Shown: piece by piece, positions 20,092-27,986 of the stretch
How the letters are laid out: every line of letters begins with the position of its first letter
Numbering within the stretch: position 1 is the stretch's first letter
Assembly: GCA_025361065.1 (NCBI GenBank)
Contig: JANYAY010000050.1
Location: 1-48,519, forward strand
DNA length: 48,519 nt
DNA from: Deltaproteobacteria bacterium
GTDB taxonomy: Bacteria; Desulfobacterota; Syntrophia; Syntrophales; Smithellaceae
Direction of reading: 5' to 3'
Program-made: the position numbers and the translations under genes
Notes under the pieces: generated by a model
Database searches by the model: none
Seen by the model: the letters and a program-made list of their open reading frames with translations, nothing else
What the model was told of the DNA's origin: nothing

Positions 20092-20670
20092 TAAAGCGAT
20101 CTCAAATATCTATAAAGTTTTAGACTTTTCCCAAGAGGAACTAAGAACATTACCTCGCAGAATACTCCATTCTGTCGACAGAGGTGAATACCGGTACAAT
20201 TGCCAAAGGAATCAATCCTCCGCTATCCGGTTTTTAAGATGCCCTGCTTTGCAGGGTGGTAGCATACATATGGTTTATACAATAGACTATGGCAACTGAC
20301 TGCTCCAGAAAATAAGGATAAAAAGTAAGGGAAATAATAGTCATAATCTACCGGCAAGGAAGAAGCGGCATACAATCCTCGCTTAAAGATAGCTTTTGCC
20401 TGACATTTTTCTCCTTTTTAATCCTCATTGCGCAACCATGTTTCGCTCCGTAGTGTTAACGATAATTATTTTTAAACTGGGCACAGGGAAAGCTCCGGCC
20501 CCATTGTCTTTAATGCAAGGAGTAAAACAATGATAAAACGCAACAAAAAAATTAATACAGATTTCTCCAATCGATAAGTCCGTAAGTTTACCCGTAATGA
20601 ACGGATAAAAAGTAATTTATAAGACACAACCTGATAATTGAACAACTTTCCAACAAAGAAGGTGCATACA
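20092..20670. other. Gene-poor region before the P460 gene
   Basis: About 580 bases without a convincing gene. A perfect hairpin CCCTGC-TTT-GCAGGG lies at 20242-20256, without a U-tract. A 15-codon reading frame (20530-20577) has a good AAGGAG site 8 bases before its ATG and could be a leader peptide for the P460 gene, but there is no further support. Confidence 0.4.
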
Positions 20671-21216
20671 ATGAAGAAAACGATGATTGCTGTCCTTCTC
20701 ATCTTTGCAGTTGTCCTGCTTATTTGGAGAATCGGCTCAGTTGCTATGCAGGATAAATATAAATTGCAGGCGTTCAATGGAATCTCTTTTTCGGAGATCA
20801 AGGGATATGAAACCTGGCAAGTAATTGCTCCCAGCCGCCGGACGGATAATAATGAGTTAAGGATTATCCTCGGTAATCCTGCCATGATTAAGGCATATGT
20901 GGAAGGTATTCCCGGCAACGGCAAACCCTTTCCCGAAGGATGTGCCGTTGTGAAAATCGCCTGGGCGGAAAAACAAAGTCCCGATTTCCCGGCTGCCTTC
21001 GAACCGGACGTTCTCCGGAGAGTTGAGTTTATCATCAAAGATTCCCGAAGATTTCCTGATACCAATGGCTGGGGTTATGCGCGATTTTTGTATGATAACA
21101 AAACCTCTGCATTTGCGCCTTATGGGAAAGATTCCTCCTTTGCGCAGGAGTGCCACCAGTGTCACACCATCGTGCAGCAAAAGGACTTCATTTTCACCGG
21201 TTATCCCCGTAGGTAA
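20671..21216 (+). CDS. Cytochrome P460-family protein
   Basis: 181 aa. The ATG at 20671 follows an AAGAAGGTG site and opens into a hydrophobic N-terminal segment (signal or anchor, residues 5-20). The body has the P460 features FSEIKGYETWQV, a central IAWAEKQSPDF, GWGYARFLYD, and a C-terminal c-type heme motif ECHQCHTIV. Family members bind a modified heme outside the cytoplasm; the substrate of this one is unknown. It lies among other heme/membrane genes, two of which are broken. Confidence 0.85.
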   Translation: MKKTMIAVLLIFAVVLLIWRIGSVAMQDKYKLQAFNGISFSEIKGYETWQVIAPSRRTDNNELRIILGNPAMIKAYVEGIPGNGKPFPEGCAVVKIAWAEKQSPDFPAAFEPDVLRRVEFIIKDSRRFPDTNGWGYARFLYDNKTSAFAPYGKDSSFAQECHQCHTIVQQKDFIFTGYPRR

Positions 21217-21331: not shown

Positions 21332-22125
21332 ATGATCAGCATTGACTTAAACAACCCAGAGGCGACTGTTGAATACCGGAAATCAAAAAGGGGGCAGATA
21401 TGGTCGATAAATGGATCGTTTTTTTACCGCATTGTAAATAGTCTTGGTTTTCCTGATCCTATACATGTCACTCTGGTTCACCTGCCGATGGGACTGATTA
21501 TAGGCGCCTTTTGCTTTGCCTGGATTTCCGCACTTTCCAGTTGGGAAAAGCCGGCCGTCATCGACTATCACTGTATTGGCCTGGCCTTTCTTTTTTTATT
21601 TCCCGTGATCATCTTCGGATTTTTGGACTGGCGGCATTTCTAGTTAGGCGTCTGGCTTGCCCCCATTAAAATAAAAATGGTCCTGGCAGTTATCCTTTTG
21701 ATCCTTTTATTTGTGCTTCTTTTCTGTTGGGTTTTCAGGGCAAGGAAAGATCGAAGATTACGCTGGCTCTTTATAGTCTCTGCTTTCTGACCATCATTGG
21801 CCTGGGCTGGTTCGGCGCAAGACTTATCTATGGAGAACAAATCCAGGCCAGTTTAAAAAAATATCAAGGTGGCGAAAAGATCTTTAGTGCTAATTGCAAC
21901 ATTTGTCATGCCAATGGAGGTAATAAATTTAGCCCCGATAATCCTCTGCGCAATTCTGAAGCTTTGCAAAACTTTAATGACTTCCTGGCGCTGATCCGCC
22001 ATCCGGAAAAACCAATGCCGGCATTTACGGCGTTTAAAATATCCGATAAAGATTCACAGGAACTCTATGCCTATATAGTGAATGAAGTCGATTGTCCTAA
22101 AGGAGCCGGTAGAGATTCACAGTAA
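21332..22125 (+). pseudogene. DUF2231-cytochrome c protein, broken by a stop and a frameshift
   Basis: Two reading frames form one protein. 21332-21643 gives the DUF2231 segment IHVTLVHLPMGLIIGAF and ends ...GFLDWRHF at an amber codon (21641-21643). The same frame then continues as coding-like hydrophobic sequence (LGVWLAPIKIKMVLAVILL) until about 21730, where the frame changes to ITLALYSLCFLT and runs to 22125. The last part is a membrane-anchored cytochrome c with CNICH. Two lesions within 100 bases argue for real decay rather than one sequencing error. The intact form would be a membrane electron-transfer protein. Confidence 0.8.
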
Positions 22126-22128
22126 GGA

Positions 22129-22623
22129 TTAGATAAGGTACTTCTGCAACGTCTGGTAGCTGTGGAAATCGGAATCGACGAAATTTGCCCCGATTTGCAC
22201 ATCACCTTCGGATTCGAATGTCCGCTGGGGTTTGCACTTTACGTTGATGGGCTGCATGGCTTCCGGCAGTGTAAAGATGATCGTGAATTCATTGGTTTCA
22301 CCGCTCGCTGAAACCTCGAGTTTGCCACCTTTGGGTATGGATATCAGGAGTCCTCCGAGCGAAATATCCAGCACCTTTCCTGTCTGTAATGCCCTGTTTT
22401 CTTCATTTTGATCCATGACCAAGGCCGGCAGCGAGACCGGTTTGCGGATATACTGACGCCGCTCTCGTTCTATGTCTTGCAGCGCCTTCTTCTCACTCAG
22501 GTATTGGTAAAGCATGTTATCAATAATGGCCGACATGGTTTGGCGCTCTGCGTCGGCGACCTTCTGGAGGGAATTTCTGATCTCGGTACTGGTACGGAAG
22601 CAAATGGTGATGTCTTTACTCAT
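22129..22623 (-). CDS. Ribbon-helix-helix/PilZ fusion protein
   Basis: 164 aa. Residues 1-48 look like a ribbon-helix-helix DNA-binding domain (DITICFRTSTEIRNSLQKVADAER, then SAIIDNMLYQYLSEKK). A short linker leads to a PilZ domain with the c-di-GMP contacts RRQYIRKP and DISLGG. A c-di-GMP-controlled DNA-binding protein is the natural inference. It has its own promoter region with nested inverted repeats, and a hairpin over the ribosome-binding site. It ends 3 bases from the end of the convergent cytochrome pseudogene. Confidence 0.82.
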   Translation of the reverse strand: MSKDITICFRTSTEIRNSLQKVADAERQTMSAIIDNMLYQYLSEKKALQDIERERRQYIRKPVSLPALVMDQNEENRALQTGKVLDISLGGLLISIPKGGKLEVSASGETNEFTIIFTLPEAMQPINVKCKPQRTFESEGDVQIGANFVDSDFHSYQTLQKYLI

Positions 22624-22629
22624 ATCTAA

Positions 22630-22649
22630 GCCCCCTGTTTTAAGGGGGC
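22630..22649 (-). promoter_or_regulatory. Hairpin covering the ribosome-binding site of the RHH-PilZ gene
   Basis: GCCCCCT/AGGGGGC, a perfect 7-bp stem with a 6-base loop, lies 6 bases before the ATG. The AGGGGGC arm is the only Shine-Dalgarno-like sequence. If it folds in the mRNA, translation would be blocked unless it is opened. Confidence 0.5.
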
Positions 22650-22695
22650 AAACGCCGGAAATAGCCCCCTTGTTATATTTTTTAATTTCAATTAC

Positions 22696-22743
22696 TCACA
22701 AAGTATCACAAAAGTTTGATTTTGTGAATGATCTTCTTTGTGA
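22696..22743. promoter_or_regulatory. Nested CACAAA/TTTGTG inverted repeats, candidate RHH operator
   Basis: Inner repeat TCACAAAA-N6-TTTTGTGA (22706-22727) inside an outer repeat TCACAAAG...CTTTGTGA (22696-22703 and 22736-22743). A further TTTGTG is at 22750. Ribbon-helix-helix proteins typically bind such arrays cooperatively and repress their own promoter. Confidence 0.6.
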
Positions 22744-22877
22744 AGTTAATTTGTGTTATACTAAATTATACAGCAAATGGTCAAGCTCATTTTTCTTTTT
22801 TTTTCAGCAGAATTTAATGCTGAATAACAATTTTGAATCCGGATTACCTTTTTTTACAGGAATGACAAAAGGTAATT

Positions 22878-25946: not shown

Positions 25947-26684
25947 AACACCTATTTCAGCTTCGCTGCTTTTTCTTTCTTCCAGACTTTGCCTGTCGCA
26001 GTATCCGCCCTGTCCGATTTTCAATTGCTATAGTAAAATCGTTATCTCCTGCCGGGCGGCCCGTTCTTGTCGCTTTTCTGATTGTTTGAAAAGTATCTTT
26101 TTCTTCCTGTCCAAGATAAATCCGCCAATCATTGACAAGTCCATATAAACTTCTGTCTTTAACAAGAACATCATCTTCAATTTTGCCAACGTGATAAGCA
26201 GCACTTGACCAAGGATACTCCCATGCATTCATCACAATACCTGCAGCAACAGGATTATTCTCAACATACTGAACAGCAGCCAGTAAATGACGCTCGTCAA
26301 GCACGCATGAACCAAATCGTCCTTGAAACAAATAGCCGCGTACTCCTTCTCGGAAATTCTTCATGCGCGTGTATCGTTTATGCGCTTCTCCAAATCCCCT
26401 GGCAAATGAAGATTCATTATGTGGTAAGGCAACAAAGTGAACATGATTGGTCATTAGACACCAGGCAAGAATATCAATTTCGTAGCGCTGCGTTTCTTCT
26501 TTGATAAACTGCAAATAGGTGTTTCTGTCACTATCGTTTTTGAAAATATCCATAGAACGTACACCACGTTGCGTGATGTGATGAGGATATTCGACAGCTA
26601 CTATACGAGAGATGCGCGCCATGAGTAGAGATTAGAACATTATACTGTCTTTTTCAAGATAAATAGGTGTTATGTCCCCGGAAA
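25934..26684. mobile_element. RAYT-type insertion element with perfect 24-bp inverted ends
   Basis: The 24 bases at 25934-25957 and 26661-26684 are exact inverted copies of each other, with the core GGTGTTATGTCCCCGG. Between them is a single transposase gene. The total is 751 bases. The left end carries the rluD start; the right end lies within the 3' end of a truncated SIR2-like gene. RAYT proteins act on REP palindromes and are normally not bounded by long perfect inverted repeats, so this may be a self-mobile form. Confidence 0.8.
25957..26622 (-). CDS. REP-associated tyrosine transposase (Y1/HUH)
   Basis: 221 aa of the Y1_Tnp superfamily. The HUH metal motif is in MTNHVHFVALP; the catalytic Tyr is expected in the YVENNPVAAGIV region helix. 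The N-terminus MARISRIVAVEYPHHITQRGV and the C-terminal basic tail (SGRKKKQRS) are typical of the group with IS200-like domains and REP binding. The stop codon overlaps the left inverted repeat. Intact and probably functional. Confidence 0.92.
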   Translation of the reverse strand: MARISRIVAVEYPHHITQRGVRSMDIFKNDSDRNTYLQFIKEETQRYEIDILAWCLMTNHVHFVALPHNESSFARGFGEAHKRYTRMKNFREGVRGYLFQGRFGSCVLDERHLLAAVQYVENNPVAAGIVMNAWEYPWSSAAYHVGKIEDDVLVKDRSLYGLVNDWRIYLGQEEKDTFQTIRKATRTGRPAGDNDFTIAIENRTGRILRQAKSGRKKKQRS

Positions 26685-27381: not shown

Positions 27382-27735
27382 TCATACCTCTCGATGTTCG
27401 GTAAGCAATTTTATGCCATCAAGAACTTCCATCATCCTTGCTTGTGACACTTGCCCTATTTTTTCAACCAAGTCCGTCTTGTTAACGGTGAAAATTTGGG
27501 AAATGTTGATAATGCTTTTTCTGGAAAGATTCGCTTCACCTTTGTTCAACAGCACATTGCCGGGGGCATTTGCCCGGTTAAGGTTTGAGGTAAGAGAACA
27601 AACCACAACCGTGTTAATTCTGCTGGCATTAAATAAATTGTTTTGAATTACGATATGCGGATGTCGATATCCCGGCTCTGAGCCTTTGGGTTCAGAAAGG
27701 TTAATCCAATATATTTCGCCTTGTTTAATTACCAT
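27382..27735 (-). CDS. MazF/PemK-family mRNA interferase toxin
   Basis: 117 aa, the usual length. N-terminal KQGEIYWINLSEPKGSEPGYRHPHIVIQ is the PemK/MazF signature; the core has NTVVVCSLTSNLNRANAPGNVLL and the C-terminal half LVEKIGQVSQARM. It cleaves mRNA when free of antitoxin. Its start overlaps the antitoxin gene by 7 bases, antitoxin first, the normal order of type II pairs. Confidence 0.94.
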   Translation of the reverse strand: MVIKQGEIYWINLSEPKGSEPGYRHPHIVIQNNLFNASRINTVVVCSLTSNLNRANAPGNVLLNKGEANLSRKSIINISQIFTVNKTDLVEKIGQVSQARMMEVLDGIKLLTEHREV

Positions 27736-27986
27736 GATTCACGCTCAACAATTTTCCCCTGTTTGGTGCGCATGGCTTTGGAAATTGTTTTTTCTTCCTT
27801 GTCGGGAAAGTCTTCATACGCTTTATTCAACTGCTCAAGTAAAGATTGATTTTCTCGTATTTTTAAAAAGTCCTGTACAGCCAGGGCAAATACCTTGCTT
27901 CGGGAAATATGTAAGTCACTTGCTAATCTATTGACTTTTGTAAGCAATTCTTCATCCAATGATATTGCTGTTTTTACTGCTTGCAT
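27729..27986 (-). CDS. Ribbon-helix-helix antitoxin of the MazF-type pair
   Basis: 85 aa. The N-terminal segment VKTAISLDEELLTKVNRLASDLHISRSKVFALAV is a ribbon-helix-helix DNA-binding domain; the C-terminal tail (KTISKAMRTKQGKIVERESW) would wrap the toxin. A GGAGG site precedes the ATG. A diverged copy of its first 15 codons lies at 29561-29606. Confidence 0.92.
   Translation of the reverse strand: MQAVKTAISLDEELLTKVNRLASDLHISRSKVFALAVQDFLKIRENQSLLEQLNKAYEDFPDKEEKTISKAMRTKQGKIVERESW

Follow-up and report, generated by a model that had tools for sequence, protein, structure and literature searches.

The window analysed here, a whole contig (129) of 48,519 nucleotides from a 3.95 Mb genome, encodes a protein in which an RHH domain is joined to a PilZ domain. 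We give about even odds (near 0.5) to the reading that its gene encodes an autoregulator that responds to c-di-GMP, behind a two-state mRNA leader, the effect of the ligand and the trigger being parts that we infer. As far as open-access papers go, RHH-PilZ is an undescribed type of switch protein: no description of the fusion was found in the open-access literature searched, and a 2025 review of c-di-GMP effectors gives CdbA (RHH) and MrkH (PilZ) as separate designs.

Table 1. Features around the RHH-PilZ gene of the window, with dyads from the promoters of three relatives
Feature	Position	Strand	Basis
RHH-PilZ protein, 164 aa	22129-22623	(-)	ORF, Pfam PilZ, 27-member family alignment, AlphaFold models
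RHH DNA-binding domain, residues 1-48	22480-22623	(-)	Fold match and alignment
PilZ domain, residues 54-163	22135-22464	(-)	Pfam and fold match
Arm 2, SD sequence AGGGGGC, shortly before ATG	22630-22636	(-)	Sequence; anti-SD duplex -8.9 kcal/mol
Arm 1, GCCCCCTT, pairs with arm 2 (SD) or arm 0	22642-22649	(-)	Inverted repeats; kept in ortholog
Arm 0, AAGGGGGC, SD-like competitor whose pairing would leave the SD free	22664-22671	(-)	Anti-SD duplex -10.3 kcal/mol
CACAAA/TTTGTG cluster, 5 copies, both orientations	22696-22757	.	Repeat listing, shuffles
Outer inverted repeat, TCACAAAG with CTTTGTGA	22696-22703, 22736-22743
Inner inverted repeat, TCACAAAA with TTTTGTGA	22706-22713, 22720-22727
Proposed sigma70 promoter, TTCACA-N17-TACTTT	22700-22728	(-)	Aligns with ortholog TTGACA-N17-TACATT
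Candidate operator half-site, GTGATAC (reverse complement GTATCAC), overlaps -10	22703-22709	(-)	Word enrichment and ortholog position
Possible second promoter, TTGACC-N18-TATAAC, carries the GTATNAC copy GTATAAC	22755-22784	(-)	Direct reading
Dyad L059, GTAATAC-ATT-GTATTGC-TAT-GTATTAC
Dyad L071, GTCATAC-ATA-GTATAAC
Dyad L064, GTGTTAC-AAT-GTATCAC

Domain fusion

The coding sequence starts at the first ATG after a stop codon. Its C-terminal part matched the Pfam PilZ profile (PF07238) with E=1.4e-10 and 41.8 bits, against a gathering threshold of 22.5. The residues of the ligand motifs, R56 and R60 of RxxxR and S88 and G91 of DxSxxG (D86 in the window protein), were invariant in all 27 aligned family members. 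In the full AlphaFold model, the PilZ half resembled PilZ domains with bound c-di-GMP, namely MapZ (5y4r, Z 14.9, rmsd 1.7 over 97) and further 5xly and 4xrn.

Residues 1-48 of the window protein stayed below Pfam thresholds, with no match to an RHH profile. Such profiles were matched in its relatives, RHH_5 in 10 and Arc in 9 of the 27 members, and also RHH_1 (best E among all these hits 3.6e-5), and the family profile picked ORF56 and CopG from PDB sequences with weak E-values (from 0.04). The AlphaFold model of residues 1-50 matched best the RHH of PutA (2ay0, Z 7.4, rmsd 0.8 over 44), and among the matches listed RHH-type proteins were found nearly throughout, including PutA, Arc and CopG. 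Helices were predicted at 13-26 and 30-44, giving the strand-helix-helix fold of the RHH superfamily; the beta-ribbon is not formed in the monomer model. Across the alignment, C8 and F9 were near-invariant, S31 invariant and R10 mostly kept.

Given the fold matches, the Pfam match and the invariant RxxxR and DxSxxG residues, the joining of RHH to PilZ proposed by the sequence-only reading is real, and the window protein probably binds c-di-GMP. Its RHH part would bind DNA.

Distribution and gene neighbourhood

Comparison of sequences indicates that the fusion forms a family spread over Desulfobacterota. Two further paralogs, about 40% identical, are encoded in the same genome, and matches were obtained in 26 of the 155 genomes of the order (E<=1e-12), in 15 of 395 genomes sampled across the phylum (E<=1e-15) and, within one other family, in 23 of 39. 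Four related PilZ proteins (L034, L035, L036 and L013) lie in longer frames (about 305-355 aa); as their match covers the PilZ half only, PilZ domains of this subfamily seem to be combined with other N-terminal parts as well.

The nearest relative, hereafter the ortholog, comes from HGW-Deltaproteobacteria-12; its protein is 83% identical overall and 88% over the RHH part. Both genes share a heptose-epimerase-like neighbour, which is kept in two other species of the genus without an RHH-PilZ gene after it. In the window, a perfect 10-bp inverted repeat (ATTACCTTTT/AAAAGGTAAT, 22843-22876) directly follows the heptose-epimerase stop codon.

A small cluster of haem-protein genes converges on the RHH-PilZ gene and includes a cytochrome P460 family protein (20638-21216, (+), PF16694, E=2e-32). 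The stretch 21332-22125 (+) holds an ORF for a short membrane protein and one for a cytochrome c, with a stop between them near 21643; the two resemble a single, possibly interrupted gene for a membrane-anchored cytochrome. Elsewhere in the window, overlapping small genes at 27382-27986 (-) include one for an RHH antitoxin-like protein (27729-27986, with a borderline RHH_1 match in Pfam) and, by eye, one resembling a MazF/PemK-like toxin (27382-27735, (-)). An ORF resembling a REP-associated/IS200-type transposase, again by eye, lies at 25957-26622 (-) and adjoins a pseudouridine-synthase-like gene.

Repeats and candidate operator

Nested CACAAA/TTTGTG inverted repeats, described in the sequence-only reading as suited to an RHH array, are indeed present in the promoter region, and they cluster above chance. 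Five copies of this word within 254 bp were matched in none of 2000 shuffles, and, counting any hexamer that has two or more G/C, a comparable clustering was reached in 4 of 2000; the nested 8+8 arms alone were weaker (28 of 1000 shuffles). Neither the inverted repeat (searched as TCACAAAR-N4-8-YTTTGTGA) nor the 20-bp tandem array (up to 3 mismatches) occurred a second time in the genome, and a genome-wide regulon of either was rejected on this ground. A CRP/FNR-type operator was rejected on direct reading, the order TCACA..TGTGA being the reverse of TGTGA-N6-TCACA.

That the operator is the array as such, with RHH proteins bound side by side, is unlikely. Its clustering, its overlap with the proposed promoter and two tandem units 10 bp apart (TTTGTGATAC-TTTGTGAGTA) speak for such a role, and a 10-bp tandem spacing suits adjacent RHH dimers. 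Against it, the unit spacings are unequal (10/16/13), the array is the sole copy in the genome, and the repeats are absent upstream of the ortholog in spite of the similarity of the two RHH parts. Being single and missing in the ortholog, the array is not a conserved operator and, as far as these comparisons indicate, would be at best a lineage-specific elaboration. A role of the repeats as RNA, in which transcripts from the TTGACC-TATAAC promoter would form a nested 5' UTR hairpin and the DNA would have no operator function, is less likely still. In its favour, the 143-nt leader from the upstream start is better folded than shuffled sequences (z -3.1); against it stand the missing repeats in the ortholog and the promoter that can be aligned between the two species, which sits downstream, inside the repeats.

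For the same two reasons, absence from the ortholog and from the rest of the genome, the upstream regions of the family were compared instead. Every 7-base word that leaves one inner position free was counted in 36 representative regions (clustered at 78% protein identity, with window and ortholog both kept) and in 60 shuffled sets. GTATNAC was the most over-represented, in 16 of the 36 regions against 3.2 expected (z 6.6; the maximum for any word in the shuffles was 4.9), a half-site picked post hoc and partly overlapping -10 sequences. The count was repeated without GTTATAC and GTATAAC, which resemble -10 elements; the word still occurred in 11 of 36 regions against 2.2 expected, a level reached in none of 500 shuffles. 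It was missing from most family members with sigma54-type promoters.

A generic sigma70 scanner found no promoter in the region, so the proposed promoters are drawn from ortholog alignment and direct reading. The window has GTGATAC 13 nt after TTCACA, embedded in the CACAAA array and on the -10; the ortholog has GTAGTAC, one mismatch from the half-site, 13 nt after TTGACA. The arrangement TTSACA-N13-GTRRTAC is thus common to both genes. Several family promoters carry half-site dyads with 10-bp spacing near the -10 (Table 1). The pattern GTNATAC-N3-GTATNRC was found at one place per genome in two genomes (G350 and G372), each time in an RHH-PilZ gene's own promoter; as the pattern was derived from these very promoters, only the absence of other copies counts as independent. 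The family dyad was not found in the window's own genome, where no further target sites were detected, and a palindromic-dyad scan with 4-base words gave nothing above shuffles. On these sequence patterns, a GTATNAC-type element would be the likeliest operator, the CACAAA units being a local addition to it.

The absence of a second target site in the genome also bears on whether the protein is a specific regulator at all. The RHH part might only dimerise, or the protein might be a moderately specific, nucleoid-type binder similar to CdbA, an RHH receptor of c-di-GMP with moderate sequence specificity (PMC7156744). This is improbable: the conservation of strand residues C8 and, mostly, R10, together with a conserved word located in the promoter, suggests specific recognition.

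Three-arm mRNA leader

A perfect 7-bp hairpin, GCCCCCT/AGGGGGC (22630-22649), contains the only SD-like sequence adjoining the ATG, as the sequence-only reading had noticed. An additional arm, omitted there, changes its meaning: arm 0 is perfectly complementary to arm 1 over 8 bp (pairing 8-10 bp), and the arm 0/arm 1 and arm 1/arm 2 hairpins are mutually exclusive, with nearly equal energies in the window. Masking of the ribosome site is therefore one of two competing states. In the ortholog, folding favours the SD-free form, with the ribosome site predicted to be mostly exposed, and when the transcript is folded step by step as it grows, the upstream hairpin is the first to form in both species.

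Blastn gave no similarity between window and ortholog upstream of the start codon. When the leaders were aligned, the arms were nearly identical while other columns were about one third identical. A C>T change in arm 1 of the ortholog is compensated in arm 2, which has an A there, and accommodated in the pairing with arm 0 as G-U; this covariation rests on one event, since only two such leaders exist in the genomes searched. Within 51 family genomes the three-arm pattern had 2 matches, directly before the window gene and before its ortholog, and none in the reversed control. As judged from these two sequences, which are few, the arm pattern bears the mark of a conserved structure. The overall folding energy of the leaders is not unusual against shuffles (z -0.5 for the window and -1.7).

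The arms need not form a switch. The upstream GGGGG arm could be a ribosome standby or decoy, or some other factor that binds DNA or RNA could have its G-rich site in the arms; exact G-runs are conserved, and arm 0 pairs slightly better with the anti-SD than the real SD does (Table 1). We hold this to be doubtful, as the C-rich middle arm is conserved too and the complementarity survives a base change.

Other explanations of the leader were discarded. No known riboswitch, c-di-GMP classes included, nor any other RNA family reached the gathering threshold in Rfam (E 0.73 for the best, a chance hit). The SD hairpin has no T-run and no intrinsic terminator was returned by the scanner; as for a temperature sensor, the modelled pairing hardly varies between 20 and 55 C. 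An enriched 7-mer found in the leader loop, TTCCGGC, has scattered positions without pattern.

Proposed mechanism

In the autoregulator reading, the protein would be a one-component, probably dimeric transcription factor whose C-terminal PilZ senses c-di-GMP and whose N-terminal RHH binds DNA. It would most likely repress its own promoter via 10-bp-spaced GTATNAC-type half-sites overlapping the -10, the CACAAA array representing extra or degenerate half-sites in the window lineage. Binding of c-di-GMP to PilZ would alter the geometry of the RHH dimer and change its grip on the operator, in a direction that the proposal does not specify. On the mRNA, arm 1 would pair either with the upstream arm, the first to form in transcription, leaving the SD free, or with the SD, hiding it; if the leader switches in vivo, translation would be set by whatever disfavours the arm 0/arm 1 hairpin. 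The earlier idea of control at two levels thus stays plausible at DNA and RNA, with the operator redefined and SD masking reduced to one half of a two-state leader.

Link to the PEP-CTERM system

A PrsR box followed by a -24/-12 promoter has been described before PEP-CTERM genes (Haft 2006), with a box-to-promoter spacer range of 32-92, and the stimulus of the kinase was called obscure (PMC1569441). Both paralogs and many relatives of the window protein have such a box (TGTCGGA..TTTACA) with a -24/-12 sigma54 promoter. Searched as a motif 1 with TTTACA at its end and, about 63 nt further on, a -24(GG)/-12(GC) promoter, the arrangement was found in the paralogs with spacers of 63 (C156) and 120 (C161). 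Spacers of 106-130 also occur before PEP-CTERM genes of the same genome, and the idea of an RHH site within the 118-nt spacing of sigma54-type members was dropped because of these similar spacings. Upstream of the window gene, neither a PrsR box nor a credible sigma54 site was found. Both paralogs and many relatives fall within the PEP-CTERM/PrsR-sigma54 exopolysaccharide regulon, and the window copy falls outside it.

In this genome, the PrsR box precedes PEP-CTERM protein genes as well as both paralogs. Boxes and sigma54 promoters were seen upstream of G000:C161 and C156 (L002, L003) and also of L006, L009, L019, L021 and L038, several of which adjoin PEP-CTERM genes. PEP-CTERM proteins are encoded beside the RHH-PilZ genes L006, L009, L012, L029 and L059 (the last borderline). 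In the order, PrsR above its curated cut-off co-occurs with RHH-PilZ, present in 12 of 21 PrsR genomes against 25 of 155 overall (Fisher p 2.6e-6, without phylogeny correction, the 25 including partial matches at contig ends).

The boxes, sigma54 promoters and neighbours link the RHH-PilZ family to the PEP-CTERM/exosortase programme. Tentatively, the family may be activated by PrsR-sigma54 and dedicated to feeding c-di-GMP signals into the exopolysaccharide programme that Desulfobacterota run with PEP-CTERM/exosortase, the window gene being a copy outside the regulon with an autorepressed sigma70 promoter and a two-state SD leader.

Comparison with known systems

Many c-di-GMP transcription factors bind their ligand via unrelated, improvised pockets. 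Fusing a plain PilZ to a plain RHH gives a simple, modular protein on which the control of an RHH dimer by a ligand is open to direct test, and genomic evidence ties the family to the PEP-CTERM/exosortase system. Compared with the regulon described for PrsK-PrsR-sigma54 (PMC1569441), box and promoter are found in the paralogs and many relatives, and neither in the window copy.

CdbA and CdbB of Myxococcus xanthus (PMC7156744) are likewise RHH DNA-binding proteins that respond to c-di-GMP, as the window protein would, and CdbA structures (6sbw, 6sbx) are among its RHH fold matches. CdbA, however, is a stand-alone RHH without PilZ that binds c-di-GMP itself, whereas the window protein has a separate canonical PilZ fused to its RHH. 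MrkH of Klebsiella pneumoniae is a PilZ-based c-di-GMP transcription factor whose structures (5kgo/5ejl) match the PilZ half of the window protein (Z about 11). To go by the structure title, the DNA-binding part of MrkH is PilZ-like and not RHH; the N-terminal 50 residues of the window protein are RHH, and a DNA-binding domain of the MrkH type is absent. PutA, AmrZ and NikR share the RHH N-terminus, which in PutA and NikR precedes a larger part with an enzymatic or sensing function, and trifunctional PutA is called an autogenous repressor in PMC5293562. Unlike in these three proteins, the partner domain of the RHH in the window protein is a PilZ.
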